In this document: one piece after another, positions 17,371 through 46,700 of the stretch | Numbering within the stretch: the first letter of the stretch is position 1 | Layout of the letters: the number at the start of each line of letters is the position of its first letter | Source of the DNA: Xiphydria camelus | Lineage: Eukaryota > Arthropoda > Insecta > Hymenoptera > Xiphydriidae | Assembly (NCBI GenBank): GCA_963678675.1 | Contig: OY783192.1 | Span: 6,458,001-6,522,000 of the forward strand | DNA: 64,000 nt | Reading direction: 5' to 3' | Made by a program: the position numbers and the translations under genes | Notes under the pieces: generated by a model | What the model was told of the DNA's origin: nothing | The model's database searches: none | The model's input: only the letters and a program-made list of their open reading frames with translations

Positions 17371-18247
17371 CAGGGTGACATTTTGAAAACTTGCCACCCC
17401 AATATCTCAGAAAGTTACAGAGATTTTCTAAAAAAGAAAAATACAGTTTTGGCAGTAGAGAGGGGGAACCAAAATGACATAATCGGAGACGCACCCCCTC
17501 CAAAACCCTTAGGGGTAGCCCCCCCAACTTTGTAATCTTAAATAGCAACCCCCCATGTGTGATATAGCGTTGGAAAGCTCTTTAAAAATGCTTTACAACA
17601 ACACCAAATTTTGGTACCTTTCGATGAGTAGTTTTCGCGCAAATCGAGAAGGTAACTGCCAGAAGTAAGTTTTGTCAATTTATTTATTAAAGGTCAATTA
17701 TGTTACAATAAATTTTCGAAGTGATCTCTACTATCTGATCTTACTCCCTGCGATTTCTTCTTATGGGAACATCTGAAATCTGTTGTCTTTCAAACTCAAC
17801 CAAGAAGCATTAACCAACTGAAACAGAGAATTATGCAAGAATATGTCGCAAAATTTCAAGAACAACATTTTAAAAAGTCCGAAAAATCAATGGAAATCGT
17901 TTCGAAAATTTATTGTAACGTAATTGACCTTTAAGAAATAAATTGACAACTTACTTCTAGCAGTTTCTTTCTCGATTTGCGCAAAAACTACTCATCAAAA
18001 GGTACCAAAATTTGGTGTTATTGTAAAGCATTTTCAAAGAGCTTTCCAACGCTGTATCACACATGGGGGGGTTCCTATTATGATTACAAAGTTGGGGGGG
18101 CTACCCCTAAGGGTTTTGGAGGGGGTGAGTCTCCGATTATGTCATTTTGGTTCCCCCTCTCTACTGCCGAAACCGTATTTTCTTTTTTAGAAAATCTCTG
18201 TAACTTTCTGAGATATTGGGGTGGCAAGTTTTCAAAATGTCACCCTG
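17371..18247 (+). mobile_element. Foldback mariner/Tc1-like element with transposase remnant
   Basis: Ends CAGGGTGACATTTTGAAAAC are flanked by TA (17369-17370, 18248-18249). Arms of about 340 bp (17371-17712 and about 17905-18247) are inverted copies. The central 190 bp keeps a frame with the transposase C-terminal signature DLTPCDFFLWEHLKSVVF followed by a Gln/Lys-rich helix. The N-terminal and first catalytic parts are missing. Confidence 0.7.
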
Positions 18248-19699: not shown

Positions 19700-21165
19700 T
19701 TTCAATGGAGGATAGATGCCTTACTGCCGAAGGCGGATAGATGCCTCTATTTCATTAACGACTTGCCATACCGATATTCTTGCAGCACGGAAGATAATGC
19801 AGTATAAAACCTACCGATTATTACTTACTTTTTTTTATTATTATGTACTTTCTGTAAAAAATATTATAGAAAACGTCATTTTCAGACATTTGGCAATGAT
19901 TACTGAAACAAAAAGAAACAAATAGTGGAAGGAATGGCGAAGTCGTCAAATTCGACAAGACAATAATAGTTTTGAAATAAACTTTCAATTATTTCCGCTT
20001 ATCTATTTATTGATAATTGTATTTTTTTATTGTTGTATTTTAGAATATAATATATGGGATATAAGGAACATTCATTATGAAATTTGTTTTTCTTACGTCT
20101 AGAATGAGTTTTTCATCTTATCAGATACCCAGGGCGTCTATCCTCCTCAGCATAGGCACGGATAGATGTCCAAGTTGTGGAATAGATACCAAAAATGGAA
20201 TTTCTTATTTTTTTGATATCTTAGCTTGTTTTATCCAAACTACATTTTACTATTATAGAAATTGTTACAATCTATTAACAACGACAATATACATATACAG
20301 GGTGGACCAGGTTAAACGTCATTTTTTTTATATGTGATAGAACAACAACAAAAAAGTAGACTTTCATAAGAAAATTTTTTTCAAAAATGTTTGCTAACAA
20401 AGATACAGGGTGTCAAAGTTTCGAAAAAAAATTGTTTTCTCATCATAACTTCTAAACTACTTGATCGATTTCCATGAAATTTCGCACACAGGCTAATGTC
20501 GTACAGCTCTAAGTAATAATTAAATAATTTTAAAAAATTCTCCAGTGGCGTAGATACTGGGGGCCGGTACCCCCCTTTCCCTTTCCCAATCTTCGGCGCC
20601 ACTGGATATTTTGCAAAGAAAATGTAATTATTGGATTCCCCGTTTAATTTAAAGAAAAAAATCACCCTTGCAAATTTTTGATTTGTGACTTCGTTTTTGA
20701 GATTTTTTTCTCTAAATTAAACGGGAAATCCAATAATTAAATTTTCTTTCCAAAATATCCAGTGGCGCCGAAGATTGGGAGGGGGAAAGGGGGGTACCGG
20801 CCCCTAGTATCTACGCCACTGGAGAATTTTAAAAAATTATTTAATTATTACTTAGAGCTGTTCTACATTAGCCTGTGTGCGAAATTTCATGGAAATCGAT
20901 CAAGTAGTTTAGAAGTTATGATGAGAAAACCATTTTTTTTTCGAAACTTTGACACCCTGTATCTTTGTTAGCAAACATTTTTGAAAAAAATTTTCTTAAC
21001 AAAGTCTACTTTTTTGTTGTTGTTCTATCACATATCAAAAAAAATGACGTTTAACCTGGTCCACCCTGTATATTCATATATTATATATACTCATATTCTA
21101 ATGACAAGGTATTTTGTCGTATAATTTGTAATCATTAAATAGTACATCTATTCCACTTTTACTTT
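19700..21165 (+). repeat. Dispersed repeat family A, copy 2 (interrupted)
   Basis: Homologous to 700-1395 with the same order of landmarks. It is split by the foldback element at 20298-21068; the homology resumes with the TCTAATGACAAGGTATTTTG region and ends at CATCTATTCC. This gives a relative age: repeat A is older than the foldback insertion. Confidence 0.6.
20298..21068. mobile_element. Giant foldback element, TIR CAGGGTGGACCAGGTTAAAC
   Basis: Two arms of about 350 bp (20298-20660 and about 20710-21068) are inverted copies around a 45-bp spacer. Each flank carries TA, the mariner/Tc1-type duplication. No open frame. A transcript through it would form a long double-stranded hairpin. Confidence 0.75.
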
Positions 21166-22217
21166 ATATCGAATGTTTGAGAAGAGCATTTATCAATTTA
21201 GGTTTTCATTCCTAACATTTGTAATTGCATTAAAAAGAAGTGCAATGAGTTCGTCGAAAAATGAAATCGTCATATAACAAACGTCGTATTCCATATATCC
21301 TACTACACTCATATTCGATCAGACTGGAGTAAGAGTATAAAGTTAACGAAAATTCAAATTCTAATACAAAACTCGATTGAGCACCAGTCACCAAGTATCT
21401 TAATTCCCTCCGCGGTCGTGTGTTGTGCGTCTTTATATACATCATATATATACACGTCACCACACGCTCAAGCGCAATGTTGCAATGATCTCAACTACGC
21501 CGAAGCGAAACGCAACATGATACGAATTTTTAATATATACAAGCAAGGAACGCCTCTCTTCCTATCGTTGACCAAATAAAAGGCAGATTAGCGGAATCTT
21601 TAAAGTCAGCAGCGTCCAGTCTAAAGGCCGCGCCCCACCAGTGTTAAAGATCGCTCGTTGGAAAGTTGCTCTAGCAAGTATCAGTAACCATGCAGTTATT
21701 AAGCTTCATTTGTACCAGTATCACGCGTTGACCAGTGCTTGAATCGAGAGAGCACAAGTGCGTGGGACGTCACGATATTTGTGCGGAGAACGCTTTGTGC
21801 CACGATCTTTCTTATTGCTAGTGGAAAGGGAACGAGTACCTCGTCGAGCACTTTTGTGCTTCCCGGTTTAGTGCTCCGTTAATTCGACATCAACCGACCG
21901 ATAAATCGGCATACTAGAATGAACATGCAGTCATAATCAGACGTATAATCAGTGTCGACAGTGAAAACGAATCAATTGTAAATCGCGATAGAAAACGCGC
22001 GATATCGTGAGCATCGACGACGATAAAAGCGCCGCGACAGAGCACCATGTGATACCGATAAAGGTTCTTTATTCAGAAAGACTATGATAGACTCGATAGC
22101 GCGCTGCATTGGCGTAAACGTATGTCGAATGCGTTTTTGTGGCGTAATATTCCTTATACATAATCGCGTAACTCGCCGAATTAAGAAAACTGCACTTAAT
22201 TATCTCCTGGATAAAGC

Positions 22218-25200
22218 ATGATTGAAGAGTTTAACGACGGCAAGATGGAAGATCTGACTGAAGGAGCCCCCGATCAATTTTGTCTTCGCATAAGGGACGA
22301 ACGAGCACCCCTGAAATACAGAGGAGGCGGAAAACCGCAAATTTTTATCGAGTTTACCGATTTGACCTACGCAGTTTCTCTCAGAAAAGGCAAGTCTTTA
22401 AACGCCGATCAGCTACCGTTTTCGTTCGCGACAAAAGTGAAAGGATTATTCGACGGAGTTCAAACGCGTGCGCATATCGCAAACCGGTATGGAAGTAGTT
22501 GTGGGGACCCACTGACCTTTCAGAAACATCGAATTAATTCTGAATGATGATATATATACTCGTAGTTACCATCGGACGCGAGGCATATAATATGAGATAC
22601 GAAATATTTTAACGTCTCATTATTCCTCTTAGAATAGTATCGAGGTCTATTAACGTAGAGTTTACGCATTATTTGTTCTCTGGTTTGAAATAAACTCTGA
22701 CGCGCACGATCTTTACTGCGATATACCTACGAAGAACTTGCTGCTTAACCTTTGGCAATAAAAAGTGGATTGATAAAATCAAATACGCAATCGATTTAAA
22801 TCTATACCTAATGTTTCAAGAGACTCGACGCCTTCGTACCTAATTTGATGGGTCGGGTCATTCAATTGAACTTGATTGTTAATCTAGTACCCCTGGCGGA
22901 TCTGATCATATGCATTTTTTCGGTATTTTGTTAGTATAATTCGGGTATGGTAACAAATTAGTAGGATATGGGTAAAATAAAACAAAAAATACTAATCATA
23001 CTTGAAAAATACGGTATGTTTCAGAATTTTCAATATCCTAAATATACTGATATTATACTCACAAAATACTAAAAAAATACCAGAATCATGCTAATATCTG
23101 CAATGTTGAATATCAGTGATTTTCAGGTATTATTACTGGTAAAATACCTAAATTATACCAGAAAGAGTATACAAAACTCCAAAAGACCGTATTTTTCGAT
23201 ATTTTTTGGGTATGGTCTCTTGCAAAAACAAAAACATCGGCGGAACGTTTCATCCCGGAGTCGGCCTGTGGACTCGTCAGTAAGGCTAGGCCGACTCCTG
23301 CTTTAGACGCTCCGTGAGGAATGGGCAGTTGCGCTCTTGTATATGTACTTGTATCGTTATCGGCTACTACCGAGAGCCGAGAGGGGTCGGTGCCACCTGG
23401 TGTCGGGCCGCCACCGCGTGATGGGCCGCCACAGCGTGACGGGTCGCTACAAAACAGTTCATTATTTAAAAGCATCACGTGATGTAAAATTGAAAATTGT
23501 GAATTCTTCGCCGTCTTGCGAATTTCCTCACTCTCTAACGCTATCTAATTTCAGCCTGAGAATCTCATTGTAAATAGATATTTGATAAGTCAAAGAAACA
23601 TATGAGGCTAAACTTATTCACCAGGAAAGGAATTTTAATCGCCATTATCTTATTATCTATGAACTTTAGGCCCACATCGATGTAAGATACTTTGTTTTAG
23701 ATAAAAATACGTGTGTGTATAATAACATAAAATATAAAACAGTTTTTATAGAAAAATTGTTAGATGTGAAACATTGAAATTCTTCTTTGTAGAAAGTATG
23801 CGATAGGAAAGATGGACCACGCGTCCGTCAAAAGAATATGTGCGCCAGTGCGCATTTGTATTTATGACCGTGATACTATTAAACGGTACGAACCGTTATG
23901 TCGAATTCCGTTTATCGCAAGACGGAACAGCGACCGATGGCAGAGTTAAGAGAGAGTAAACTAAATGCGCTTTTTGAATTAAACACAACGGTTAGCGTAT
24001 TGCCATTCCAGCGTCTGGATCCCTAACGGAATCACCACGCTAACAGCCGTTCTCACCGCCATAGCGCGGCATAAGATGTTTCACATCAAAATACAAGGTA
24101 CCCTGGTATGGGTAAAATACAGGAAATAGAACATAGGAATCCTGCGAAGAACGCCTCAATATAACAAGTAACGAATACCGAATAGTAAAATTAAACATTT
24201 AATAGTTACTATTGAGTGACTACTAAAAATTATTAAAGATAGCTTTTGAACTTCAGTAGTAACTACTGAATACCAAATAGTAAAATGGAGTATTTAATAA
24301 TAACTATTGGGTGACTGTTGATAACTATTGGGGGGGGGGGGGGAATTTTTGAACTCCACACTAACTATTGAATACTCTATAGTAAAATGGAGTATTCAAT
24401 ACCTAGTAACTATTGGTTTACTATTGGGAACTATTGAAGGGAACTTTTTAATTTCAGTAGTAACTACTGAATACCCAATAGTAAAATGAAGTACTCAACC
24501 GTAACTATTGGGGACTATTGAAGGGAGCTCTTTAATTTCAGTAGTAACTATTGAATACCCAATAGTAAAACGGTGTATTCAATAGTAACTATTGGTTGAC
24601 TATTGGGAACTATTGAGGGGAACTTTTGAACTTCAACAGTAACTATCGAATACTATTGGGATCCCCAATAATAACTACCCAGCTAGCACACTAACGTCAG
24701 CATAACGCCTCAGACATCATTTTTTGGTCAGTATAGAGTTTTAGACGTCGGTTGTTTTAATATTTACGTCACAGAGACGTCATATTTACGACGTTCCTTG
24801 GACGTCAAAATTCAACGTCTTTTTAACGGAACTTTTCCGTAATTTTTAATGTCGAACGAGACTTAGAAAAATTTCGGTCTCCTGCATATCGTTGTACTAA
24901 TATCCGGTTGCCCGCTAGATGGCGAATATTCTCAGATGCAAATTTATGTTTTAGTATTTACAAGGTGCACCAACGAAACTTGCTGATTTGAGAGGTGGAT
25001 AAAACAAAAAAATATATAGACATGGTTTTTTAATTATTTTTTCTTATATTTGTACATAATGTGGGAAATTTAAAACTACATGGTTTTAAAAATAATATTA
25101 GGCAAGTGACGCCCCTCATTATCAATACACTGAATTAAACGATTTATGTGGAGTTCTTAATAATTCATTCTAACATAGCTACGGGTATTCCGGCTATTGC

Positions 25201-28200
25201 TTGGCGAATATTCTCCTTTAAGTGGAGTAAGGTCCTTGGACGATCGGCGTAAACAATAGATTTCAGATAACCCCATAAAAAGAAGTCGCAAGGGCGATCA
25301 TCTCGGGCGGGAATATTGAAGTGTACACGAAATGCACGCTGCGCGGCAATAATCGACCGACCGTTAGAAAAGTAGGCCTCTAATACAAACGCGCGTAGCT
25401 TCTTCGGCCAATGCATTTTCGCTACTGACGCTAATGATAAAGAAACTTCCCAAACCACATCTTCACATGAGACTATCCCCACCCACGACTTACCCTCCCT
25501 CCCTTCACGGCACGCTGTTCAAATCAGCAAGTTTCGTTGGCGCACCCTGTATAAGAGCAACGTTGAAAAGTGTAATGGTTTTCGCTTCATGGCTCAATTT
25601 GGGCTTTGATCAAAGTGTAGTGCGTTGGATGTGGTCTGAGGCATGGGAGGAACTGGCGATCGAGTTGAGAGGGACTCGAAACCGAACAACCATCGTGCCA
25701 CCCGCCGCACGCGCACAGATAGTGCACAGGATGAGGGTGGCAGTGGTTGAGTAGTACCGCGGCACCTTATTGGCGAAGCGGGATCAGGGTAAGGTCCACG
25801 AGGTGTCGGGACGGGCGAAGTGGTCCATCTGACGTCAGAACTGACCTTCAAAAAACGTCATTTCGACGTTAGTGTGCTAGCTGGGTATTGAAGACTATTG
25901 ATCTGTCAATAGTTACTATTGAAAACTATTGGCCAATCAATAGTTTTCTTTCGCAAGGGTAGTGCATTCTTTTGCGATTAATTGAAAGTTTCGAGCATTT
26001 TCAGTTGAAAAGCACAAAAATCATTTCATTACAGAAAATACTATAAGCACAATAATAATGTGGTCTTGAGTATTACACTGTAAAAAATTATGCGGTGTGA
26101 ACCTATACAAACCACTTTTGGTATTAGATAATAATGACTTAAGTCTGAATGTGGTACATATAGGTTCATACCGGTAAAATGGTGTTAAAAATTAACACCA
26201 CTTCTTCGATTATGCGAAGTCCTTTTTGTCACTCAGTGTCAAAAACCTCGGTTTTTCGATAGTCCTCGACGCTTGTGAAATCGTGTTTCACGCACTGAAG
26301 CTACTCAGTGTGTGAACAACCTGCGCAGTGCGTGAAAGTACCTGCGCAGTGCGTGAACACTTTTTTCTGCACTGGAGAAATAGTTGTGAAGTTAGCAGTC
26401 AGTGAATCCAACCGAATGTCCAACACTGCGCATGCGCCGAGAGACTACACAGTTGACAGAAAGCCGGTACACATAACCTCAAAACGGTGAAACAGAAAGC
26501 CAGTACACATAACCACAAAACGGTGAATTGTAGTTTTATAGTGTGAAATATAAATAAAAACTCATGACAATGGATCCCGTTTTTATTCAACAATGGAACC
26601 AGTGTTGGTTGACACGTTATTGCTTATCAGTGTCCAACTATTAATTTGTTGATTTTTTTATTGTCGAAAAAATGCATATTTAATTTTTTTTGATATTGAT
26701 AAAAGTTTATAATTTTACTCTAACTTTCAATGTGTTAATTTTTTCTTTCTTTTCTTTAAAAAATATGTTTTATGATCTTTCTTTTTGGGGGGCTCCGCCC
26801 CCCCCCCAACCCCCTCCGTACCGCCACCCCGGACCCCGTCCGCGCCCACGCTCCAACCTCGGTTTTGACACTTTGGTGACAAAAAGTCAAATTCGATATT
26901 CGTGCGTTTCGCGCCGTTTTTAACTCGTGTGATTGCCGCACTCGCTTCGCTCATGCGGCAAACTTCACACTCGTTAAAAACATGCGCTTCACGCACTCGT
27001 ATCGAAAAAATAACTATTTCGGTATCTTTCAAGTAGGCACACATAGATGTTGCATATATAACTGTTTCCATACTCGAGGCAATATTTTATAGTTTTACAC
27101 GTAAGGAGAAAATTTTACAAAAATCGCGCAGGGAAAATGACGTCGATTGCAATAGAAAGATGGCCCCCCGTTCCCACTACTCTCTATAGCAATGAGGGAC
27201 CAACTTCCTCCATAATCGATATCACTCTTTACTAAAGATTCAACATGTTAAATACTAATGTTTAACACTATTATCTTATCCTAATACTATTATATTACCT
27301 TAATATTATTATATTATCTTAATGCTATTATGTTATCTTCTTCTACTAGGAAAACGAAAGGAGATTTTGAAATGCATTTCCGGTCACTTTCGACCAAGTC
27401 GATTAACGGTTATAATTGGACCGTCCGGTGCCGGGAAGACAACTTTGCTCAGTATCATTTCCGGATTGCGAACTGCGAATCTCGAAGGGTCGATCACCAT
27501 CAATGGTTTTGAGAGGAACGCAGAAGTTTTTCGAAAGCAGGCTTCTTACATCCCTCAGGAGTTCACTCTATTACCCCTACTCACTGCGAAAGAAACGCTT
27601 TATATTGCTGCACTCCTCAAACTCGGTTGGCCGCATACGTCCAATTCCAGAGAGTTCATAGTACGTATCGCCTGAGGTTCAATTCGTGAAGCGACGTAAC
27701 AATTTCAAATTTCACGTGATTGTACATCCTTCATGAAAAATAATACCGAAGTTTAGGGATAAACTCCAAATTTTTAGAATAAACCGTTAATATTCGGGGT
27801 GTACCCCGAAGAAGGTTAGGAGTAACACCTAAATATTGGGGTTAGCTCGAATCAGATTCGGGGTAGTGCCTAAACGTTAGGGTTACTCTAGGTACCTGAA
27901 TCAATTTCGAGGTAATAACTGAATATCGGAGTTATTACACATCAGATTGGCAGTAAATTCAAATTTCAACTTACATTCATTTGAAATAAATGACAATCAA
28001 ATTAAGTATACCTTTGCTAAATTTGTTTTAATTTTATTCAAGAATCCGTACAAAAACGTTTTAGCCGACTCAATTTTGTATATATTTTCATAATAGAAAT
28101 ACTAGTTTTAATTTTTAACTAAAGAGAGAGCATAAAAATATGCAATATGAGGTCAAAATGATGTATAATTTGAAAGACTTCAAAAATATATCATCAAGTC

Positions 28201-31200
28201 ATTAAGAGTTTAACTTTAATTTTTATATCCAGTTATTATCATAACATAATTTTATGCTAATTATGTAATTAGTTGAATTCTATACACGCTATCGGTAACA
28301 ATTTATATCATTGCGCACAATTATATACGTACTTATTCTTCGACTTATAAATACAGAGAAGAGTTATAACAATATCGAAAGTTGTCAATAGCGATGTATG
28401 AAATCCTGGTACTGGGAGGTTATTCCAAATCGGGGATGTACCACTAATTATAGGGGTTGTGTGTGTGCTTTAACACGTTCGCTGCGGAACACGCGGCTCC
28501 CGCGTGAGGTGGCTGTATCTCCTGGGCGGATCACGCGGATCCCGCGGTACGCCAACATAGTTTTACGCAAATTTAAAGATTTTAGTACGGGGGTTAACTC
28601 AGTGATCTTGATACGCAGGGAACGTATTCGTTCGCTGCGTATTCGCGGCTCCCGCGTGGGAGGCACAGCCACCCTCACGCGGGCGCCGCATGTTCCGCAG
28701 CGAACGTGTTAAATTGGGAGTAACTGTGAATTGGGACTTCATTGTTTATTAGGAAGGCCATTTTATCTCTATTCAAGGGTTTATTTGGGGAAATTTTATC
28801 GGTCTTTTTCAGGGTTTACCATCAATTTTTTGGTGTTTTTTTCGTAAGGGGTCATAGTAATGCTAATAAAACACAATTCTTGGTTGTAGGTAACCGAAAT
28901 TGCAGACAGATTGGGACTAATGGATTGCTTCGATACGATGGTCGAAAATCTCAGCGGTGGTGAACGAAAAAGACTATCTATCGGCGTAGAGCTTATCACT
29001 GATCCTCCTGTTATGTTACTGGACGAACCGACCAGTGGTCTAGATAGTGCAGCTTCTAATCAGGTTTTTTTCCTTTATTCGATTACCAGTCGATTTCGCT
29101 TACAGATGTTTTCTGCTGCAGTCGTTATTACCTTTGTATGGCCTTGTTTACTGACTTTTAGCTTAATTTTAATATAATTTTTATTATTTTGGGACAAAAA
29201 TTTATTCCGATCACACAGACAGTGTCGAACAGTATAAGCATGATTCTCTTCGTCAGGTAGTTGGTCTCTTGCACGCCATGGCCCAGACGCGTCGCACAAT
29301 TGTTTGCGCGGTCCATCAGCCCAGTAGTCGTCTCATTGCCCAATTTGACGACGTGATCATACTCGATCGTGGTAGAATTTTCTTCTGCGGCCCAATAGAA
29401 GAAATGATCGACACCTTCAAAGAAGCGGGCTACGTCTGCCCACAGTTCTACAATATAGCGGAATTTGGTAACAATTCGGACTTTTTCATCCTGCAGCGTG
29501 TCACGATATCAATTAGCAAATGCCTCTTCTAAAAACACGATCCATCGCACTTTTACCCTTTTAAGTTCTGGAAGTGGTCACAGAGCAGAGAGGAGGCGAC
29601 TTGGAACGCCTTCATGAAATCGGGAAGTCAAAGTACGCCGCTCTGAATGCATCGCAAAATCGATGCGTCGATGCTAAAAGGAAGAAAGGTGAGCCTGCTA
29701 CCCTTTAAAGTTCATTCCTACATTCTCGCCTTCTTCCACTAATTATTATAATCAGAAATGTTGGTGAATCCATTTGAGCATCCACCAATGAAGCAAAGTT
29801 AAAAGATTTCGCAATGAAAATTATTTTCAAATTATAGATGTGATCGCGTCAATGCCTCTGACTAACAATGAGTATCCAGTAGAAGATGAAAACGACATAC
29901 CGAAACCGGGCCGCTACCCAGTTTCAAGGTGGAAGCAAGAGAGGGTTTTGCTCTCCAGGGCGATTACCTGTGCTGCGCGAGATAACGTGAGCTTACAGAT
30001 CACTAAGTCGAATTTTCGATACCATTAGTCGAAAGCAATAGTTGAAATTAACTCGTGATATTGCATCTTTCAGACTATGACAAAATTGAGACTGGCCGCA
30101 CACGTGGTGGTAGCAATTCTATTGGGGATATTGTATTACGACTTCGGAAATAACGCTGATAAAGTTCAGAGCAATATAGCTTGTCTGTTCTTTATACTTT
30201 TATTTCTATTCTTTGCCAATGCTATGCCAACAGTGCAAATATGTATGTTGCTGTCAAGTAAAAGCTTGAAATAATATTTCGCATTTCTTCAACGTACAGT
30301 CGTGACTTATTTCTTCCTCGGTTTTAGTCCCGACCGAGGCTACGGTTTTCCTGAGGGAACATATGAACAACTGGTATTCCTTGGATTCTTATTACGTCTC
30401 TAAAGTTTTATCGGATTTGCCATTGCAGGTAAATAACAGTATATTGTGTTTTACATTAGTTACCTACGGTAACTAATAATATACGTTATTGATAATATAC
30501 ATAGTTTCTCGATTTTGTTCCTTTCATAATTGTGATATTCCTTGTAAGAAATTGTAGTTTAACGGATTGTTGGATAAGTGTTAAATAAGGTAATATAAGT
30601 CACCGTTTTAAAAATAAATACGTTTCTATACAGCTCGAATACGTACTATATCGTATCCAATTTAAACCCGTATTTAGACGTATTTGGATTAGGTACGGGT
30701 TTAATTAATCCGACACGACAGAATGCGAATTAGAACCGTGTATAATCATACTTATTTTTAATACATTGGCTTAGACTGTCTTATCCTGCCCTTATCCGGC
30801 AATTCGCAATTTTTTCAGGGATAACATAGAAACATTATAAACACCAATTATTATAATTTCAACATTAAGATGAATACCAACATTAATGTTCTTAAATGTA
30901 AAAAATCGCAGAATTCTATCTGAAAAATGCTCTTCCTACATTAAACGAAGTTCTTCAAAAGTATGAATGTAGGTTGTAAAATTGTCTATTTCACACTATA
31001 TTGCAGATAGTTTGCCCTACCTGTTTCATAATCATAACGTATTGGATGACCGGCCAACCGTTTGAGGGAGTCAGAATATGTCAAGTCTGGTTGGTGTGTA
31101 TTCTACTCACTATACTCGCCCAGTCGTTTGGCATTGTCACTGGAACGGCATTTGGTACTCAGGTAACGTAAATAAGCTCACTTCTTGATTTGTAAGTAGG

Positions 31201-31493
31201 ATGCAAGACTCGCGATAAGAATAAGCGCTGCGCACAAATATCGCCTTTTCTCTGTCATCTACGCGATACAGTCATTTGTTATATTATCTTCACAGGCTGG
31301 AGTATTTTTAGTACCTGCTTTGAATATCCCTATGTTTCTCTTCGCGGGATTCTTTTTAAAAATCGATGAAGTACCCGCGTACCTACAGCCCATGTGTTTC
31401 GTGAGCTTCTTCAGGTGCGTATACTTGCCACATAATCTACCAATAAGAGACTGTTTCAAAATGAATGTCTAATTAAGTAATGATTATTGATTT

Positions 31494-31532
<39 letters not shown>

Positions 31533-34500
31533 CTGTAAAATATATTTACAAAGAATGAACATTTAGTAAGTATGATGTAATTCGTTGAAAATAGTGTAAT
31601 GAAGCTCAATTTAGTTCAATCGCAGTAGCGTGTACAGCCTGTTAAGTAAGAGCGTGTACGGCGTTATTCATAAAAAAAATTATTCAACAATGCTTTTTTC
31701 CACAAACATACGTTTGACATATTCCAAGGCAATGGGCAATTATGTTAAGAGGCCGACATACCTCGCACAAAACTTGTCGCAGTAGGGCTACGCTCATTTC
31801 GTAACGGGAAACAATGTCCATACCAAACTTATCACACTTTCAGACCAAATATCATTAAAGGTTTCTATAGTAACCAAATTATATATTTTTGTGTAAAAAA
31901 ATCCATGCAGCCCTACTGCGACAAGTTTTGCATGCGTTTCGAGGAGGTATGTCGGCCTCTTAATAATGAGTCCAATCACCACCATTGATAAATAATGGCT
32001 TGGCATCTCCGAGGCACCTACTATCTATCAAATTTTCGGCGTATTCGCGTGAAAGTGCCTTCCAAATGCGTCGAATTTCTCGGGATAGCTGCTTCACAGT
32101 AAAGACACGTTTTCCTCCAAGCTTCTGCTTGATGTATAAAAACGTGTCTTCACTGTGAAGCAGCTATCCCGAGAAATTCGACGCGTTTGGAAGGCACTTC
32201 CCCGCGAATACATCGAAAATTTGGTGGATAGTATGCCTCGGAGATGCCAAGCGATTATAGATGGTGGTGATTGAACTCATTATTAACTGTAATTGCGCAT
32301 TGCCTTGGAACATGTCAAACGTATAAATGTGGAAAAAAAAATGTTGAATAAATTGTTTATGAATAACGCCGTACACGCTCTTACTTAACAGACTGTACGT
32401 ATGTATATGCCCGGGAAAAAATGTTTATATATAATCATATCGCACGTTTGCTGCAATAGTGTCATAACTCAAAATTGAAAATGTCCCAAACGACGACTTT
32501 AAAAGTTGAATTATTATATTATACGAGCATTGACCATTTGCTGCCAGATTATGATAATTATTATAGAATTTTCATGATAATTATCATAATCTGGCATCAA
32601 ATGGTCAACGCTCGTATAATATAATAATTCAACTTTTAAATCGTCGCTTGGGACAATTCCAATTTTGAGTTATGACACTATTGCAGCAAACGTGCGATAT
32701 ATGATCATATATATATATGCGATATATATAATAACACAGGCCTGCGATGAAAAAAATACAAGGGAAGTGACAACTGAACTTTATGTATTTTTTGGTGTTG
32801 ATTTAAAAAAAGATAATGAAAAAGTTCTATCACGTCAAGTTTTCTTGAAAAATTCAAGTTTACTTGGATTTTTATGAACATTTCTAACTTTCGAACTCTT
32901 GGTCGATAACCTATTTCATGTAACTTATCTTAATAAAAACAAATTAAAATAGCATGTTGGTGATTTTTCTCTAGAAACTACACCATAAGTTGATGTATTT
33001 AAGTTTAAACCCACGGGAACGTTTAGTTTTCCTGTCGACCAGAGGTGGCTCCTGCGATCTGGTAACAGTGGTTTTCATCCATTTAAACCTATACAAAATA
33101 ATCGATTGTTGAAAAATTAATTTGCCTCACCAAGAATCGATTATTTTACATACATTTCAATAGATAAAAACCACTGTTGCCAGATAGTACGCAAAATTGT
33201 TCGAGACAATTAATTTTCAAATAGGATTCCAACAAAAAGAGCGATATCGATTTTACAAAAAATGCTGACGTGATGGGAAAAAATGGAGGTCATTTTAGAA
33301 ATCAGCACACCAAATAACATAAAAATCAGCGAAAACTTCTCTTGTATTTTTCAAAAACTTTAATTTCGCAGGCCTGTGTAATTAGATATACTCAAATCCG
33401 AAATTTGTCTCTATCTGATTATATATGAGAAGAACTATATGTATACATATACTTAGATGTGAATAAAACCAAAAATTCTGGATCTTATATTTAATTTTTT
33501 CTAGTTATATATGATTTTATACAGTATGTCCCGTGAATAACGCAAGTATTTGAATTTCCCTGACATTTGACTTTGGTAGTGCTTGAAACGGTGCTGTAGT
33601 TAAGGAGGCCCTAGACGGTCAATCATTTTGATCAAATGCTTGAATCAAGCGATTGATGTGCGCACCAATCAACTTCAGTGAACCTTTCAATCTTTTTATC
33701 AAAACTTAGTCATAGTTCAGTTTTCGACTCGGCTGGTGGTTCGAACAATGATGTCCAACACGGATTTGGCCTTTCTAGCATTGACGTTGGTTGTCGTTAA
33801 AAAGAAAGACCAAAAGCGGAAACGACGTTGGTCCAAGGAGTGGTACAAATTGAGAAATCGTTTCACTCATGAGAATTTACTTAATTTCCTACGCGTTTCC
33901 GAAGCCGATGATTACAAAAACTTCATCAGAATGGACGAAGGGAGTTTTGATTTTCTATTGCAATTGATACGCCCCAAAATCGAGAAAAAGGATACTAATA
34001 TGCGTGAAGCGATTCCTGCAACTCAGAGACTTTCCATCACATTAAGGTATCTGGCTTCTGGCATGGATGTGGAAGACCTGAAATTCTTGTGCGCCATTGC
34101 TCCTCAGACTCTGGGACTCATTATAATGGAAACTTGCTCAGCAATTATAGAGGCATTAAAAGAGAACATTCAGGTATGTATCTATATTTTCTTTAACCTT
34201 TAATTTTATTATATAAAGTACAAATATAGGTATAAATAAATTATTTCACATTGAGGTGAAAGATGAAAAAAAAATCAGCAGCATTTGCGTTCTGAGAGGT
34301 TTCTTGATATTGTTGTTGGTGTGCTGAAGTGGGAGAAGGCAAAGGAGAACTGTAAACTTGTGGTGCCGAGTTGGGATATCGTTGCATATTGTGACTTGAA
34401 TAATTAAAAAAATTAGGCGATGACGACGAAGATGTTGGCGAAGGTGACCAACGTGGATACATTTCAAAACGTAATCCGTCCCTTGTCAAGTTTCCCGATT

Positions 34501-37500
34501 CTGCTTCAAAAAGCGTGTCGTTAATGATTTTTTCAGCGAAGCGTCTTTGGTCAGGAAGTAGCCTCTTTAATTTAATTGCCCAGCCCTTAGCTAGTATGTC
34601 CTCTTCTGACTCGGGCCTCTTAAAATACTCAGTTGCTAATCCCACCAGTTGTTCAGTGGAATCTGACTGAACTTTTCTTTTCTTTTTTGGTGGAAGTGGA
34701 AGGGCTTGTTCATTGAGACTAGGTGGAGCAGCTTTGTTGGAAAGGGACTCTTCACTTTGGGAGGCAAACTGTGACTGTGGGTCATCATCAGACAATGGTT
34801 GCTAAAACAAAAAAAATAAATTGATAAATTAATGAAAATGATTGAAAAAAACTTATTAGTACACAAATACGTTCAATTACATGTACCTATTTATTTCTTG
34901 TGTTACTACTAAAATGTTTATGCAACGATATCTCAACTCGGCACCACAAGTTTACAGTTTGCCTTTGCCTTCTCCCACTTCAGCACACCAACAACAATAT
35001 CAAGAAACCTCTCAGAACGCAAATGCTGCTGATTTTTTTTCATCTTTCACCTCAATGTGAAATTGAAACAAACTATGGAGATAATACTAAAATTTTTGTT
35101 TCGTATTGTTAAAGGTTCCTAAATCTGAAGAGGGATGGAAGCAAGTCGCACAGGGATTCGAAGATCAATGGAATTTCCATAATTGTATCGGGAGCGTCGA
35201 TGGCAAGCACATGTTACTCCAAAAACCCTATAACTCTGGTTCTTATTACTACAATTATAAAGGTTCCTTCAGTATTGTGCTTATGGCTATTGTTAATTCC
35301 AATTATGAATTTATGATGGTCGACGTAGGAGCGAATGGTCGAGTGTCGGATGGAGGTGTGATGAAGAATACGTTGTTTTGGCAGAAGTTGTCTAAGAACC
35401 AACTTAATATACCTGATTCTCGTGAGTTTCCAGGTACTGATAAAAAGTTTCCGTACGTGTTCGTTGGAGACGAGGCTTTTCAACTAATGCCTAATTTTAT
35501 GAAACCCTACAACAGAGCCTTATTGACAGATGAGAGAAAGATATTCAATTACAGATTGTCCCGAGCAAGGAGGGTTGTTGAAAATGTTTTTGGAATATTA
35601 ACTAAGCGATTCAAAATATTTCAGAAAGAAATTAAATTTGAACCTAACAAAGCTAGAAAAATTGTTCTCGCGTGCTGTCATTTGCACAACTACCTGTGTA
35701 CGAGAACCAGAGCCAAATATTTACAACCTAATGACGTTGATATTGAAAATCCTTCGACTGGTGCTGTGGAACATGGGTCATGGAGACAAGACACACAGTT
35801 GATGACACCACTTCAAAGAACAAGAGGCAACTCAGTTGTTGAAGCAAAAAAAGTGAGGGATGATTTCTGTGAATTCTTCAACACCTCTGGGGCAGTTCCA
35901 TGGCAAAATAAGTGCCTGAATAATTAGTAACAACAAGACTAGTAGCAGTATATTTTGTATTGTTTAACGATAAAATCAATAAAAATTGAGAAACTGGTAT
36001 TTTGTCTGTTATTTTATACCCATGCATACGACTAAGTAATACCTTTGAAGTATTCCAGTCAAGTAACGAAGTTTAGCATGAGAAATTTACATAATTATGT
36101 ACAGCAATATAAAGTGCTTACCTCTGAAGTTTCGGTTGGTGCTACTTCTATCTGATCCTTTATGAAAGAAAGCTCCTTGTAATACCACAACGAAGGTTCC
36201 GGGATGTCATCCGTTGAAGCCCCAGACACCTTTTGTCTCTCGATTGCCTTATGCTCCCTATTGAAATTGGTTCTCAAAACATTAATTTTCTTCTTCAATT
36301 CATTAACTGTGTAATCCGGTTTTAACGCCTTCAATGCCCGTACTATTTTTTCAAAAGCAGCACTTTTTTTGTTCCTATTAAAATAGTCCTTGCTCTTTAC
36401 CCTCCAGAGTTCAGGGCAATCTCTGTACAAGTCAATTAAGAGACTTATAAACTCGTGTTCCGAATTTTGCAGTTGCTGGCTCTTCCCAACACTTTCCTCT
36501 TCGTTTTCCACTGGAGTTTCGGAGAGCGGTGAAGCCTCCATGGTAGCCGCTATGTGACTGACGCAATGCTTGATAAAACCCAGCCTACACGGTCAATCGC
36601 TTGAGACAAATGCTTGAGTCATTCAAACATTCTATCAATCACCGTCAAGGCTTGGCTCAAACGTCAAACAGGTTCCTAGACGGTCAATCGTGCTTGATTC
36701 AATCGCTTGATTCAAGCATTTGATCAAAATGATTGACCGTCTAGGGCCTCCTTTAGAGTTGGCTTCGGAAGAGTGCGCTGCGTTCTTACGAGTGTGGCGA
36801 AAAGGATGTGGTCGCCATCTAATCGGCGGAGCGATTCGTCCCGGAGTCAGCCTGTGGACTCGTCAGTAAAGGCCATCACACGTGAAAAAACGTAAGCAGT
36901 AACAGTAAGGATTGACCAACCAGAAAGCTTGTTTAAGCATAATTCCGTAAGAATTATATTTCTGATTGGTCAATCCTTACTGTTACTGCTTACGTTTTTT
37001 CACGTGTGATGGCCTTTAAGGCTAGGCCGACTCCTGCCTTAGACGCTCTGTGGTCCTCAGTGACAGACGGGCAGTTGCGGTCTTATATAGAAACTTGCCC
37101 GTTGTTGGACCACTAACGAGAAGCCGAAAGCCGTGGAGTCGAAGGTCGGCGCCACCTGGTGGCAGGGCGCCGTAGCGCGACGGGTCGCCACACGAGCCGT
37201 GTTTCCGCGAAACCTGTATGATTATTTCTCATCACTTCTACACATTATTTACCATTATTTACAAATTCAGTTAATTTCGAGGTTAGACGCTTCGATCTCC
37301 CGAATTGACAGTTCCCGGGAAATCAGACGTTTCACACTTTTTGCTCTCGAAACACGGCTCGTAAGAACGCAGCGCACTCTTCTCAAGCCAACTCTAACTA
37401 CAGCACCGTTCCAAGCACTACCAAAGTCAAATGTCAGGGAAATTCAAATACTTGCGTTTTATCCACGGGACATACTGTATATGGTTCTTCATATATAATC

Positions 37501-37911
37501 AGATAGAGACAAATTTCGAATATGATAATATCTAATTATTATATATGATCATATATGTATAGTTATATATAAACATTTTTTCTCGGGTGTTTTCATCTAG
37601 TATACGTTAATTGAAGCCGAAGGTTCATAGCGTGATACGCAGCTTTTCTTTCGTATAATAACTTATGGATATTTTGTTGCAGGTATGCATTTGCAGGCAT
37701 CCTACAAGCGATATACAGTGGTAATCGAAATAATTTGGAATGTTTTAACAATTTCTGTCACTTTCAAAAACCCGAACACATTCTCGAGTATGCGAACATA
37801 TCTTTGACGTCATTCTATCCGGTTATAATCGCTTTAACCGCGTGGATCTTTTGTTTACACGTATCCATTTACGCGGTACTTCGATGGAAGTTGTACAGAG
37901 CTACAAGATAA
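22218..37911 (+). CDS. ABCG-family half-transporter 2
   Basis: Complete ABCG half-transporter of 672 codons by this model. Exons: 22218-22494, 27350-27660, 28890-29063, 29257-29467, 29566-29688, 29838-29986, 30074-30242, 30328-30428, 31007-31162, 31296-31414, 37683-37911; the summed length is divisible by three. Start: first ATG of a long frame with the N-terminal segment [17 protein letters not shown]. ATPase motifs in order: Walker [11 protein letters not shown]-loop SYIPQE, signature [16 protein letters not shown], Walker [15 protein letters not shown]-loop CAVHQPSS. Hydrophobic segments follow ([43 protein letters not shown]) and the tail ends WKLYRATR. The exon 1/2 junction is uncertain: the better-looking donor CG|GTATGG (22486) is out of phase with exon 2, whereas A|GTAGTT (22494) is in phase; a small missed exon is the alternative. 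Substrate unknown. Intron-exon architecture matches ABCG 1, pointing to tandem duplication. The last intron is 6.3 kb of nested transposons. Confidence 0.9.
23235..23455 (-). mobile_element. Hammerhead-bearing dispersed repeat, copy 1
   Basis: Homologous to the LTR-like insertion at 36793-37192. On the minus strand it begins (T)GTAGCGACCCGTCACGC, includes GGTGGCACCGACC and a TATA-like CATATACAAG about 40 nt upstream of the ribozyme, and ends just past the ribozyme (CCGCCGAT). AAAAC flanks both sides. It lacks the 28-nt end (TGGCGACCACATCC...) seen in the other copy, so it may be truncated or use a different end. Confidence 0.55.
23241..23314 (-). ncRNA. Hammerhead ribozyme, type III topology (copy 1)
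   Basis: Read 5'->3' on the minus strand from 23314. Stem III 5' strand CGGAGCGU, then cleavage triplet GUC (cut after the C at 23306). Stem I is UAAAGC/GCCUUA with one A-C mismatch, closing loop AGGAGUCGGCCUA. The CUGACGA core matches CUGANGA. Stem II is GUCC/GGAU with a G-U closing pair and loop ACAGGCCGACUCCG. GAAA follows, then stem III 3' strand ACGUUCCG, which pairs over eight positions with one wobble. Every conserved core nucleotide is present. The two loops carry 11 complementary bases (GGAGUCGGCCU/AGGCCGACUCC) that could kiss or refold as one long hairpin. It sits at the edge of a dispersed repeat shared with 36793-37192. Activity is inferred, not shown. Confidence 0.72.
24150..24672. 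repeat. Minisatellite, unit about 85-100 bp
   Basis: Units carry CAGTAGTAACTACTGAATAC, ATAGTAAAATGGAGTATTCA and AACTATTGGGAACTATTG. About five degenerate copies are seen; a G run (24331-24344) interrupts one. The array resumes at 25886-25955 after the transposon at 24678-25885, which therefore inserted into the array. Confidence 0.65.
24678..25885. mobile_element. DNA transposon, TIR CCCAGCTAGCACACTAACGTC
   Basis: Inverted ends CCCAGCTAGCACACTAACGT flanked by TA (24676-24677, 25886-25887). A second element (24961-25549) is inserted inside it. The remaining interior has no clear transposase; the frame at 25594-25754 has no recognisable motif. Confidence 0.65.
24961..25549 (-). mobile_element. 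Mariner/Tc1-like element with fused transposase remnant
   Basis: Inverted ends CA(A/G)GGTGC(A/G)CCAACGAAAC flanked by TA. A minus-strand frame (25165-25482) joins an N-terminal helix-turn-helix segment of the insect transposase/DUF4817 type ([17 protein letters not shown]) directly to the C-terminal signature [19 protein letters not shown]. The middle, including the first catalytic Asp regions, is deleted in frame. It is nested in the element at 24678-25885. Confidence 0.7.
26091..26174. repeat. Short hairpin repeat
   Basis: GTGTGAACCTATACAAACCAC and the inverted GTGGTACATATAGGTTCATA flank about 35 nt. Probably a MITE. Confidence 0.4.
27750..28465. repeat. Degenerate tandem motif region
   Basis: Variants of GGGGTTA.C.C.AATATTCGGGGT recur at 27755-27960 and flank the MITE (28398-28460 and 28713-28740). 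Between 27960 and 28390 the DNA is AT-rich with nothing recognised. Confidence 0.4.
28474..28708. mobile_element. piggyBac-like MITE
   Basis: TTAA at 28470-28473 and 28709-28712 flanks inverted ends CACGTTCGCTGCGGAACA and TGTTCCGCAGCGAACGTG. GC-rich interior with inverted CGCGGCTCCCGCGTG motifs. No transposase. TTAA duplication and end sequence are typical of piggyBac-derived MITEs. Confidence 0.75.
31501..31530. repeat. (TA)n microsatellite
   Basis: About 15 TA units at the start of the last intron of ABCG 2. Confidence 0.9.
31635..32395. mobile_element. Foldback Tc1/mariner-type element
   Basis: Ends CAG(C/T)CTGTTAAGTAAGAGCG are inverted and flanked by TA (31633-31634, 32396-32397). Both arms carry degraded copies of a Tc1-like transposase C-terminus: the right arm reads [19 protein letters not shown] then [15 protein letters not shown]. 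The left arm is split by the MITE at 31749-31959. Confidence 0.7.
31749..31959. mobile_element. TTAA-flanked MITE nested in foldback arm
   Basis: TTAA (31745-31748, 31960-31963) flanks perfect inverted ends GAGGCCGACATACCTC. Inner arms CTTGTCGCAGTAGGGCT are also inverted. The other arm of the host element shows the unoccupied site, confirming a later insertion. Confidence 0.7.
32440..32700. repeat. Near-perfect 250-bp palindrome
   Basis: Arms of about 115 bp beginning ATCGCACGTTTGCTGCAATA and ending ATTATCATAATCTGGCA surround a loop of about 20 nt. AT-rich foldback MITE inside the left arm of the outermost element. Confidence 0.7.
32735..33378. mobile_element. Non-autonomous element with TAA duplication, TIR CACAGGCCTGCGA
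   Basis: TAA (32732-32734, 33379-33381) flanks inverted ends CACAGGCCTGCGA. The three-base TAA target fits PIF/Harbinger, but the interior has no transposase. Confidence 0.6.
33748..35927 (+). CDS. Harbinger DDE transposase
   Basis: Two exons, 33748-34173 and 35115-35927, give 412 aa. Exon 1 begins at the first ATG (an ATG follows at once) and carries a basic [15 protein letters not shown] segment, then the helical N-terminal region typical of the family ([33 protein letters not shown]). Exon 2 carries the DDE_Tnp_4-type nuclease: first Asp in GSVDGKHML, second Asp in VFVGDEAF, Glu in [10 protein letters not shown]. The intron has GTATGT and TTAAAG ends and contains the 3' exon of the opposite-strand gene. 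It acts with the MADF-type partner on the element's inverted ends. A poly(A) signal AATAAA follows at about 35973. No break is seen; likely competent, but this is inference. Confidence 0.88.
34241..36541 (-). CDS. Harbinger MADF/Myb-like DNA-binding protein
   Basis: Two exons on the minus strand, 36541-36122 and 34801-34241, give about 326 aa. Exon 1 holds a MADF-type domain ([58 protein letters not shown]). Exon 2 has a PPKKKRKV nuclear-localisation-like stretch, a helical segment [18 protein letters not shown] and a Ser/Gln-rich tail. In Harbinger elements this partner helps bring the transposase to the nucleus and the TIRs. Its exon 2 lies entirely within the transposase intron, so the two transcripts overlap in antisense. 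Confidence 0.8.
34250..35062. repeat. Internal inverted duplication in the Harbinger transposase intron
   Basis: About 145 bp from the tail of the MADF-gene exon 2 (34250-34397) is repeated inverted at about 34918-35062 with few differences (shared CAACTCGGCACCACAAGTTT and CAGCACACCAACAACAATAT). The second copy is not spliced into either gene. Confidence 0.75.
36827..37050 (-). ncRNA. Hammerhead ribozyme copy 2, disrupted
   Basis: With the MITE at 36870-37016 mentally removed, the minus strand shows the same parts as copy 1: GUC, a perfect UAAGGC/GCCUUA stem I, CUGACGA, stem II GUCC/GGAC, and a stem III with two failures. The A after GAA is U (GAAU), which breaks the A15.1-U16.1 pair. The MITE also separates stem I from the CUGACGA core, so this copy should be inactive. 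Confidence 0.65.
36870..37016. mobile_element. Palindromic MITE with TAA duplication
   Basis: TAA (36867-36869, 37017-37019) flanks inverted ends AGGCCATCACACGTG; arms of about 55 bp (GTAAGCAGTAACAGTAAGGA) surround a short loop. Its insertion point is inside stem I of hammerhead copy 2; copy 1 shows the empty site. Confidence 0.75.
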
Positions 37912-43715: not shown

Positions 43716-46700
43716 ATGCCGCGAAAACGAAAGGTATCAAGCATTGATGATAAGTGTCGGATATGCCTTACTGATCATGGAAGTATGAGCAACATATTCA
43801 GTGAAACAATTCAACTCAGGATCAAAGACCTTTCTAAGTGCACAACAATCATTGTATGTTTACCATTTAAAATTTGTCGTTATCTCGCCAATTTTTCTAA
43901 CAATTTTGCCCAATTAATGTTGCTTCGTTTTCACCAGATTGAGGATAAAGAAGATTTCCCTAGAAATATCTGTCATATATGTCTTTATAAGCTCGATATG
44001 TGGAGCGAATTCAAGGAACAGTTTATTCGATCCAACGAGACTCTGCTGGCGCATTTGAGTTTAGGAGAGTCTCCGGATGTTGTGAGTATATCTCGATCAA
44101 CATTGAAGCTCCTTTCCATAACAAAATGTATCTGTTATTGTCTTCATTGGTGTCTCAATGAGTCCGTGATCATATCAGTATTTGTACTTTTCAGGAGATA
44201 AGTATGAAAAGAAAGCACCATAATTCACAACCCAGTGGCGACGAGAGTTCTCATGAACGTGTGGAGAAAGTAATTGTTATTTGTACAGAGTGTGTTTAGC
44301 CGATAATCTGCCACTCCTAGTAATGCGGTAGTAATTGAATTGTGATTCAAGAATTCGACTCGGAGAGCATTTCGCACTAAATACATTTATACTGGGTGGT
44401 TCTTTAATATTACGACAAATTTCAAGGACGGGTTCCTTGGATGAAAATAAAAAAGTTCCTATGAACATGGGTCCAGAAACGCTGAGTTTCGGAGAAACAG
44501 GGTGTTCATTTTTATACAAATTTTCTATACTAATAATAGGAAGTATATTTTTGCATTCACCAATCAATGCATCGCAGAATAGAAGCATGTATTACTGTTG
44601 ACGGTGGCCACTTTGAACAACTTTTATTACCATCTTTCATTTTCTTATTTCATTTGTTTCCTACATTTTCGTTTGTATAAATTCCTTCCTTTCCATTAAT
44701 TTTTCCTAATAATTAATTTTCTTGCTTCACTGTGCATTTTTTTTAGCTTGGTGTATCATCTATTATTACAAATAAACATTTATTTCCAATTAAATTAAAG
44801 ACTTTTGTACTGTTTGTTGATGGAAGAGAATTTGTAGAAAAATTCAACACCCTGTTTCTCCGAAACTCAGCATTTCGGGACCCATGTTCATAGGAACTTT
44901 TTTTCTTATTTTGATCCAAGGAACCCATCTTTGATGTTTGTCGCAATATTAAAGAATCACCCGGTATACTGATTAGTACATGTATATTCATGTCCTTGCA
45001 GTAAAGGTAGCGGTTGCCATTTTCTGTTTCGCTACTACCGTATTGTCAGGGAAGTATCGACTGAATGCACTCATACTCTACCACAAAGTATTCTGCCTTT
45101 ATTTGTATAATTAAATGACAATAATTATTTATCTTAGAAGAAAACTAAACCTGAAATACCACCGCTTATACCTTTGGATTTTGGGAGCATAGACTGCATT
45201 ACGGATCAATCTACATTAAAGGATGAATACTCTCCACGAGATAATCCCTCGACGGTATCTTCAAGGGATAATTCTCGACAAGCGGATGAGGATGACGAAG
45301 ATGTGGACATGGCTCAAGAGCAGTCTAAGTCATCTTTACTCCCAACAAAAGTTAAGTACATCAGTGGCAGGCGTAACAGAACAAACGAGAGGCGTAAAGC
45401 ATCCACCAAACGGTGGGTAGCAAGAAAGAAGGCTCTTCTAGCAGCCATCGGAGAGCACGCTTCCGATACCGATTCAATTGTTTCCGACGAAACACAATTG
45501 TCACCTGTTCAAAAAGCTAGAGCAAAAACAAATGCTGATAAAGAAGCAGAAAGGCAGATGAGGTTGGCGAGAGCTTTGAAGAATTTGGAAACCGATATGA
45601 CGGGAAAATATAAAATCAAACACGACAGCGATAGTATTATTTTAGTAGACACAGATTCGGAAGCCAGAAGAACAAGATCTCATAAGACAATTGATTATGA
45701 CGAATCACGAATTGGGAGTAAAAATTCAATATCTCCAATGAAGAAAATTATTAAAATAAGCGATGCAGGTGTCAATGAGATTATAGGAATTAACACAAAT
45801 CAGTTAAATTTGCAAGTATCCGCAGATAATAAGAATTCGAATTTGCCAGAAGCACTAGGTAGTTTGTCGGGCGAACTTGCGAAGAAAGATGATCCATCAA
45901 GTCTCATAGATAAATTCAATCCGCATTCTGTTCGTTCGGAATTGGAAGTAGAAGATGCATCGTATCGTATTACGTCGACGCTAGTTCTTTCGGAGCCGCA
46001 TTATTTGAACAAAGCTAATTTAAGTACATCTATTAATGGTAATGCCTTAGATGTCGGTAATAGCGAAGAAAGGAATACAGATATTATTGACGCTGTACAA
46101 TTGCGCAGGATAAGTCCGAAATCACCTATCGAGAATGATAAGAGGTTTATAGAGCGATGTCTCAATATCGAGGTCGAAGGTACGGAGCTTGAAGCTTTAC
46201 AGCGCGTTCAATCAGAATTGGCTTCCTTCGTTGAGAAGGATATGAAGCAGAAATTGTTAAATAAAGATAATGTAGACTCCGCGGAAAGGGTGAAAATAGA
46301 AAAGAGTAAACCTAAAGATTCCTTCCAAACGTTAGACCAACAATTGAAAACCATTGTTGAGAAAGCGATAAAGCAAAACATCGAGACAATTAAATTAAAA
46401 CAGACACCGAGCAGTAGCAGCAGTAGTAGTATATTACACCCTAATTCGAAGTTGAAGAACTTATCGCCAGCATTTATCAAAGCTGCAATGCGTTCAAGTT
46501 TGTTTCAGCCAAAAGTACTATTGGCGCGTCTAGATTTGAATAAAATACGTGAACGTTATCGTATAAATAATACCGCTATTTTGGAGCTGAAAGATAGGAC
46601 TGAGTCGACAAGTTCAAATTTAGGTAAGCGGCAAAGGGTTCCGCCTGTGAGGTTTGGCGATTTGACACTGCTGACTTTCGATCATAGCGAATCCGAATCA

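Follow-up and report, generated by a model that had tools for sequence, protein, structure and literature searches.

A type III hammerhead family with the architecture of plant LTR retrozymes in the genome of Xiphydria camelus

The window, the whole 64,000-nucleotide stretch of Xiphydria camelus DNA analysed here, holds two copies of a hammerhead motif, both on the minus strand. Copy 1 lies on the strand opposite to ABC-transporter domains found downstream of it (27304-31469, plus strand); a candidate upstream exon at 22215-22544 gave no Pfam match. A location of copy 1 in an intron is plausible and would be incidental. Copy 2 lies within a DNA transposon at 33379-37538. Elsewhere in the window are an array of GCGAAGCGAAGCGACGC-like 15-nt repeats (2330-2740), very long near-perfect inverted repeats resembling MITEs (17431-18188, 20424-20940 and 32437-32700; several lax Rfam miRNA matches fall on such palindromes), an ORF that by eye resembles a mariner transposase (58539-59162) and a zinc-finger protein (45174-47921) closest to proteins of Orussus abietinus and Cephus cinctus (55% each), followed by other Hymenoptera, which points to a hymenopteran host, probably one that branched early. 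The features of copy 1 and its surroundings are as follows.

23241..23314, minus: hammerhead copy 1 (predicted ribozyme), 74 nt, type III
23314-23307/23248-23241, minus: stem III, 8 pairs, one G-U
23306, minus: C17 of GUC; predicted cut between 23306 and 23305
23305-23300/23286-23281, minus: stem I, 6 positions, one A-C mismatch
23288..23298, minus: loop I segment pairing with loop II, 11 bp
23280-23274, minus: CUGACGA core
23273-23270/23255-23252, minus: stem II, 4 pairs, one G-U
23257..23267, minus: loop II segment pairing with loop I, 11 bp
23251-23249, minus: GAA, then A15.1
23336..23343, minus: TATA-box-like TATACAAG, upstream of the copy 1 ribozyme
23236..23451, minus: LTR fragment of copy 1, TGTAGCGACCC..CGCCGAT; last ~28 bp of the LTR missing
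23229..24087, minus: carrier repeat (group 1) holding copy 1, ends GATGTGAAACATC.../...CGATGTTT

The first-pass annotation had read an eight-pair stem III, GUC, a closed stem I, CUGACGA, a closed stem II and GAA followed by A at this site, and all of these were recovered when each pair was checked. The pairs are UA GC CG GU AU GC GC CG in stem III, UA AU AU A-C (mismatch) GC CG in stem I and GU UA CG CG in stem II, with A15.1-U16.1 present. Copy 1 has CUGANGA, GAA, A15.1-U16.1, H17 and three stems, and the type III topology proposed for this insect motif was correct, stem III being the open stem. A further feature, absent from that annotation, is the Watson-Crick complementarity of 11 bp between loop I (13 nt) and loop II (14 nt); the longest such run among 20,000 shuffled loop pairs was 9. 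Stem I exceeds stem II by 2 bp, and type III pseudoknots commonly go with a stem I that is 2 bp longer than stem II, as described by Perreault et al. (PMC3088659). A relaxed type III descriptor found a single site in the window, copy 1, against a background of 1 site per 400 simulated 64-kb first-order Markov sequences; a stricter descriptor, which required 4/4 outer pairs in stem I, missed it. Copy 1 is confirmed, at the level of sequence, as a real type III hammerhead motif and predicted ribozyme. Its core is intact and cleavage could occur if the motif is transcribed; a TCA located 26 nt past the TATA-like box, directly before stem III, could serve as a candidate start site.

Rfam hammerhead models, which had been proposed as a check, gave no match at the gathering score for the window, for copy 1 or for the intact family members L070 and L073, and a lax search of the window also found no hammerhead. 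RF00008 gave 0 matches in the whole genome, where its controls likewise gave no signal. With lax filters RF00008 scored copy 1 at 15.3 bits, in an alignment displaced onto the 11-bp segments, while RF00008 gave 21.7 bits on L070 and RF00163 gave 21.9 bits on L073; none of these scores reach the gathering thresholds of 48.5 bits (RF00008) and 34 bits (RF00163). Taken literally, this outcome and the covariation result given below are two of the results that the first-pass annotation had named as refuting. The scores probably stay below threshold because complementary loops of 13 and 14 nt are absent from the Rfam models. As Rfam at its gathering score misses this motif, relatives elsewhere may have been overlooked.

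Copy 1 does not stand in an intact element. The group 1 carrier repeat is common, whole or in part, to all nine loci compared (L031-L039), and in the copy 1 subgroup (L001-L016) the LTR, in most cases lacking its final ~28 bp, lies at one end of a repeat of up to ~1.1 kb. Adjoining the carrier repeat of copy 1, several imperfect repeats of ~95-100 nt (TAACTACTGAATACC...) occupy 24165-24620. An interpretation of copy 1 as the 3' end of a 5'-truncated retroelement was rejected, the shared ends of group 1 pointing to a DNA-type repeat with an LTR fragment. By these boundaries copy 1 is a relic, an LTR fragment hitch-hiking inside another repeat. The features of copy 2 are as follows.

36793..37192, minus: solo LTR, TGTGGCGACCC..TTTTCGCCACA
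37193-37196 and 36789-36792: target site duplication (TSD) CTCG of the solo LTR
37082..37089, minus: TATA box TATATAAG
37017..37050, minus: hammerhead copy 2, 5' part (stem III 5', GUC, stem I, loop I)
36827..36866, minus: hammerhead copy 2, 3' part (CUGACGA, stem II, GAA, stem III 3'; U at A15.1)
36867..37018: palindromic MITE of about 150 bp, 60-nt arms, 98% complementary; TA-flanked, inserted at TA in stem I (end) of copy 2
36755..37395: TIR element holding the solo LTR, ~38-bp ends AGAGTTGGCTT..CTTACGAG, read by eye

The transposon at 33379-37538 has long inverted ends and a DDE_Tnp_4 transposase ORF (35106-35927), a domain from which it is presumably of the Harbinger type. Three insertions are nested inside it, the MITE within the solo LTR and the solo LTR within the TIR element, and the opposite arm of the transposon provides the empty site of the TIR element. 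Copy 2 is evidently a relic as well, a solo LTR broken by a MITE. When the MITE is disregarded, copies 1 and 2 differ at 6/74 ribozyme positions with no indel, while their upstream LTR sequences (137/142 nt) show, according to how they are aligned, 20-28 mismatches plus 21-43 gap columns; for the contrast in substitutions alone, two alignment settings yield Fisher p values of 0.088 and 0.018. At the A-C of stem I and the G-U of stems II and III in copy 1, copy 2 pairs G with C, but it carries lesions of its own, an A-C in stem III and the U at A15.1. The 'complementary differences' that had been described between the copies are separate lesions and not compensatory pairs.

The motif is abundant in the 357-Mb genome. 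With up to 3 mismatches allowed, a 35-nt piece comprising stem I, loop I and CUGACGA was found at 525 + 491 = 1,016 places, and the reversed pattern at none. Among the first 100 ribozyme places listed, all of them exact, there were 19 same-strand neighbour pairs 610-865 nt apart and no opposite-strand neighbour pairs within 2 kb. Genome searches yielded at least 46 matches with copy 1, the best 40 of 1,472 candidates being scored, and at least 45 with a group-2 copy (best 40 of 1,605). A covariance model (R1) matched 30/30 loci from each search, five loci being common to both sets; in the copy 1 set L028 matched weakly and L017 contains half a ribozyme. The model was built from two family copies, and its matches therefore show homology rather than independent structure. 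Further analyses of 58 ribozyme copies and 21 LTR copies used matches with E ≤1e-12, which leaves out L017, L028 and one weak L050 match; L040, L041, L042, L046 and L065, the same places as L020, L019, L027, L029 and L022, were also left out. Among the 58 aligned copies CUGANGA and GAA are kept in 45, in 41 together with A15.1-U16.1 and H17, and the core is damaged by the CUGANGA/GAA test in 13; the cleavage triplet is GUC in 44 and GUU in 6. All 11 loop-loop pairs are standard in 40/58 copies and at least 8/11 in 58/58. A fully canonical ancestor had been postulated, and the majority sequence of the aligned copies is indeed fully canonical.

Group-2 copies span TGTGGCGACCC to TTTTCGCCACA, that is, an LTR. 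Target site duplications of solo LTRs were assessed by a fixed rule in the 12 of 30 loci where both LTR ends were found: the 4-bp flanks were identical in 5/12 (0.5 expected by re-pairing flanks) and matched at 3/4 or more positions in 7/12 (1.4 expected), a perfect 4-bp TSD being absent in 7/12. Directly behind the LTR end of one locus (L048) lies TTGGTGACCCCGACGTG, which is presumably a primer binding site (PBS) for tRNA-Trp; ARAGORN detected no tRNA in 10 loci. A tRNA-Trp primer is mentioned for a wasp Gypsy element in PMC10886601. When up to 3 mismatches were allowed, the junction of LTR end, TT and TGGTGACCCCGACGTG (PBS) was found at 82 + 87 = 169 genome places and its reversed control at none. 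The 100 listed junctions comprise 65 exact ones, 13 with one mismatch and 22 with two, the last forming a second class, CGCCAAAG + PBS. On contig C1, comparison by hand of the first 100 entries of each list showed an exact ribozyme piece whose start is 91 nt upstream of 6/6 exact junctions and 89 nt upstream of 9/11 second-class junctions.

Five loci around such junctions (L070-L074) were retrieved, a non-random set in which four were chosen for close-lying junctions and one as the first exact junction. Each has the TATA box TATATAAG at the corresponding place in the LTR. L073 is a complete element of 886 bp with the TSD GGTT on both sides. Its LTRs (153-402 and 789-1038, 250 bp each) both carry the TATA box and a hammerhead and differ at 3/250 positions; the two LTR pairs compared differed at 3/250 and 0/250. 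The 386-bp interior between the LTRs, which includes the PBS and, before the 3' LTR, the purine tract (PPT) GGGGGGGAGTAC, lacks a long ORF, the longest stop-free stretch being 95 codons. L070 is composed of head-to-tail LTR-interior units, with three complete LTRs, the start of a fourth and three ribozymes at spacings of 610 and 631; L071 consists of two full units plus the beginning of a third LTR, with a ribozyme spacing of 652. L074 combines two LTR subfamilies with a ribozyme core in each. The second subfamily, with the LTR end TTTTCGCCAAAG, also occurs in the LTR of L076; it retains an intact hammerhead core and accounts for 22/100 listed junctions.

L072 differs in what follows its second LTR and PBS: an open frame with the gag domain DUF7041 (E 2e-27) and, downstream, open pieces in differing frames that match reverse transcriptase (6e-36), RNase H and integrase in Ty3/gypsy order; a protease match (E 4e-5) was below the cutoff. 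Of 15 gypsy-type junctions, 2 read CGCCACA, 12 CCCCACA or CCCCGCA and 1 TCCCACA. L077, the only other gypsy LTR end retrieved, has no hammerhead match, and the idea that L072 demonstrates a hammerhead in an autonomous gypsy was rejected on these two grounds. Neither in L075 nor in L076 was the 3' LTR belonging to this gypsy copy detected, and the LTR in L076, behind the L072 gypsy, is on the other strand. Probably the autonomous gypsy is without a ribozyme and L072 is a hybrid. The LTR tip, TT, PBS and next few bases are common to the small element and gypsy, and a Ty3/gypsy element with this PBS and leader is the likely helper. The gypsy junction is accompanied by an exact ribozyme place at a distance of 8,851 nt at each of four places (G000 C1:26015861, C1:26031292, C3:4204 and C4:24921), three of which have a second ribozyme 813 nt on; these represent either segmental duplication or duplicate contigs.

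These loci have the sequence features by which LTR retrozymes are recognised: a hammerhead in direct-repeat LTRs (L070-L073), a 4-bp TSD, PBS and PPT, a non-coding interior, ribozyme spacings of 610-865 within 600-1000 nt, and a PBS and LTR tip common with Ty3/gypsy. Metazoan non-LTR retrozymes and Penelope-like hammerheads are of type I, the former without LTR, PBS or PPT; here stem III is open. The overall reading of the first-pass annotation is supported, and its hint at plant retrozymes is borne out by the LTRs, TSD, PBS, PPT and multimers. The hammerhead family is, with high probability, a small LTR retrotransposon of plant-retrozyme architecture that would move via circular RNA with a Ty3/gypsy helper. 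Weighing against this reading are the Rfam scores, the 13 copies with a damaged core and the 7 loci lacking a perfect TSD, together with the minimum-energy fold, the slight conservation contrast and the covariation result described below.

From the LTRs, TATA box, hammerhead, TSD, PBS, interior, purine tract and multimers read in the DNA, we infer the following course of events. RNA polymerase II would start at the TATA box of the LTR, shortly before the ribozyme; cleavage by the ribozymes of both LTRs would release units of about 610-865 nt from the transcript, to be closed into circles by a host ligase. The helper Ty3/gypsy reverse transcriptase and integrase would then copy the circle, sometimes for more than one round, and insert the product. 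Reverse transcription of a circle would explain complete two-LTR elements and multimers alike, and recombination between LTRs would leave solo LTRs. For plants, such a model has been put forward in PMC4918200 and PMC7761336. Because cutting in the 5' LTR removes the cap and R, the course of reverse transcription is a reconstruction; in Nicotiana, according to PMC12029980, the start of the LTR promoter could be mapped only with the ribozyme disabled, the 5' part being cut off otherwise. Stems I and II are probably held in place by the 11-bp helix between the loops, acting as a kissing interaction; the same segments can also fold as a plain hairpin, which would keep the ribozyme of the circle blocked. 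The predicted fold of the L073 unit RNA (z -5.1 against 20 shuffles) forms the 11-bp hairpin and leaves the hammerhead blocked. A hairpin of this effect in unit RNA is described for plant retrozymes in PMC4918200.

The alternative that fares best, an ordinary TRIM with a passenger hammerhead, would move by linear LTR retrotransposition with the ribozyme idle or only lowering expression. The elements do have the hallmarks of TRIMs, which are known in Hymenoptera (PMC10886601), and in the 21-copy LTR alignment the majority fraction is little higher in the ribozyme (0.948) than upstream (0.914) or downstream (0.945) of it; 7/21 copies ran past the LTR end, which inflates downstream gap counts, and one began early. 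A passenger is nevertheless less easily reconciled with a majority ribozyme that is fully canonical, with 107 bits under the covariance model for 5/5 ribozymes of the L070 and L071 multimers, with the six substitutions and no indel that separate the ribozymes of copies 1 and 2 beside a diverged upstream LTR, or with the head-to-tail multimers themselves, and is considered unlikely. The intact multimers and the contrast between the two window copies suggest selection on the ribozyme, which the conservation measure does not prove.

Much less probable is a plain hairpin, with the 11-bp segments as the conserved feature and the hammerhead parts arising by chance. The minimum-energy fold of copy 1 is indeed this blocked hairpin and not the hammerhead, and the covariance model scores the antisense strand weakly, presumably due to the hairpin. 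Against this reading, the majority sequence preserves the core and all of stems I, II and III, and the descriptor background given above makes a chance match rare. In alignment A4, 40 gap-free copies of which 36 are distinct (38 of 39 74-nt matches plus L070 and L076), 93.1% of cells are paired, and sliding the structure by 1-3 columns reduces this to 23-42%. The compensatory changes looked for among the genomic copies did not emerge, covariation in the 36 distinct rows being not above shuffles: 3 pairs showed two-sided change against 1.9 expected, with 4 two-sided cells on these pairs against 2.2. The likely reason is that the copies are too alike, with a mean column identity of 96%, a value raised by the omission from A4 of copies with indels and of the second L047 match.

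Equally improbable is that the genome contains the reverse-transcribed relic of an RNA agent resembling a delta virus or a viroid. Although pseudoknotted type III hammerheads occur in HDV-like RNAs of termite and toad (PMC7936874), the LTRs, TSD, PBS and PPT contradict it for the present copies, and such an agent could be at most the remote origin of the motif. One 26-nt core pattern had no exact match in viral_contigs, and a pattern scan of genome_contigs gave 0 matches.

Beyond the retrozyme-like LTR element itself, a broader and tentative proposal, which for now we would not favour over its negation, is that animals have their own LTR retrozymes, dependent on Ty3/gypsy, propagated as circular RNA and bistable, with kissing loops for cutting and a hairpin lock on the circle. 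If true, the retrozymes of plants and those of insects would have arisen by convergence or be connected through horizontal transfer. The near-identical, recently inserted copies provide an insect system for asking whether LTR elements move through circular RNA.

Pseudoknotted type III hammerheads have already been published for termites and flies (PMC7936874), which means that a type III motif in an insect is by itself no novelty, and unpublished work on insect type III hammerheads has been announced in two papers. Structure searches reported in the accessible part of PMC7936874 gave no further examples of the atypical type III motif in some insects such as hymenopterans. No report of LTR retrozymes in animals was found in the accessible text of the open-licence PMC literature. 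The type III motifs of termite and toad HDV-like RNAs, termites and Diptera resemble the present one in a Watson-Crick contact between loops I and II and in their occurrence in insects; that contact is about 4 nt (GCCR/YGGC) and arises at an internal loop within a long helix I, and the termite genomic copies are described as isolated motifs with no recognizable ORFs nearby (PMC7936874). Hymenoptera TRIMs and the animal Helenus elements are likewise short non-autonomous LTR elements with PBS and PPT, Helenus also having a Ty3/gypsy helper and a 4-bp TSD; no hammerhead is mentioned in the accessible part of PMC10886601. Metazoan non-LTR retrozymes (Cervera & de la Pena 2020, PMC7229834) are animal genomic hammerhead repeats in head-to-tail units, as here, but are described as type I with 150-450-bp units and no LTR, PBS or PPT, all three of which the insect element has.

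The closest likeness is to plant LTR retrozymes (Cervera et al. 2016, PMC4918200; PMC7761336; PMC12029980), which, as far as these sources describe them, have type III hammerheads in LTRs with a promoter before the ribozyme, a 4-bp TSD, Ty3/gypsy-like PBS and PPT, a non-coding interior, and ribozymes 600-1000 bp apart in dimers and some multimers. Their LTR ends, PBS and PPT are common with Ty3/gypsy, with no other similarity detected according to PMC4918200. The insect element differs in its animal host, an LTR of 250 bp against ~350, a PBS of tRNA-Trp rather than tRNA-Met type, and loops of 13/14 nt with 11-bp complementarity in place of plant loops of 6-8/4 nt with non-Watson-Crick contacts. 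It has ~1,000 matching places in one genome and is known from its DNA. In the papers cited here LTR retrozymes with type III hammerheads belong to plants and non-LTR retrozymes with type I hammerheads to animals (PMC7761336, PMC7229834), a division that the Xiphydria camelus genome crosses. Insect retrozymes would bear on the suggestion in PMC7761336 that plant retrozymes perhaps came from organisms such as bacteria or insects.
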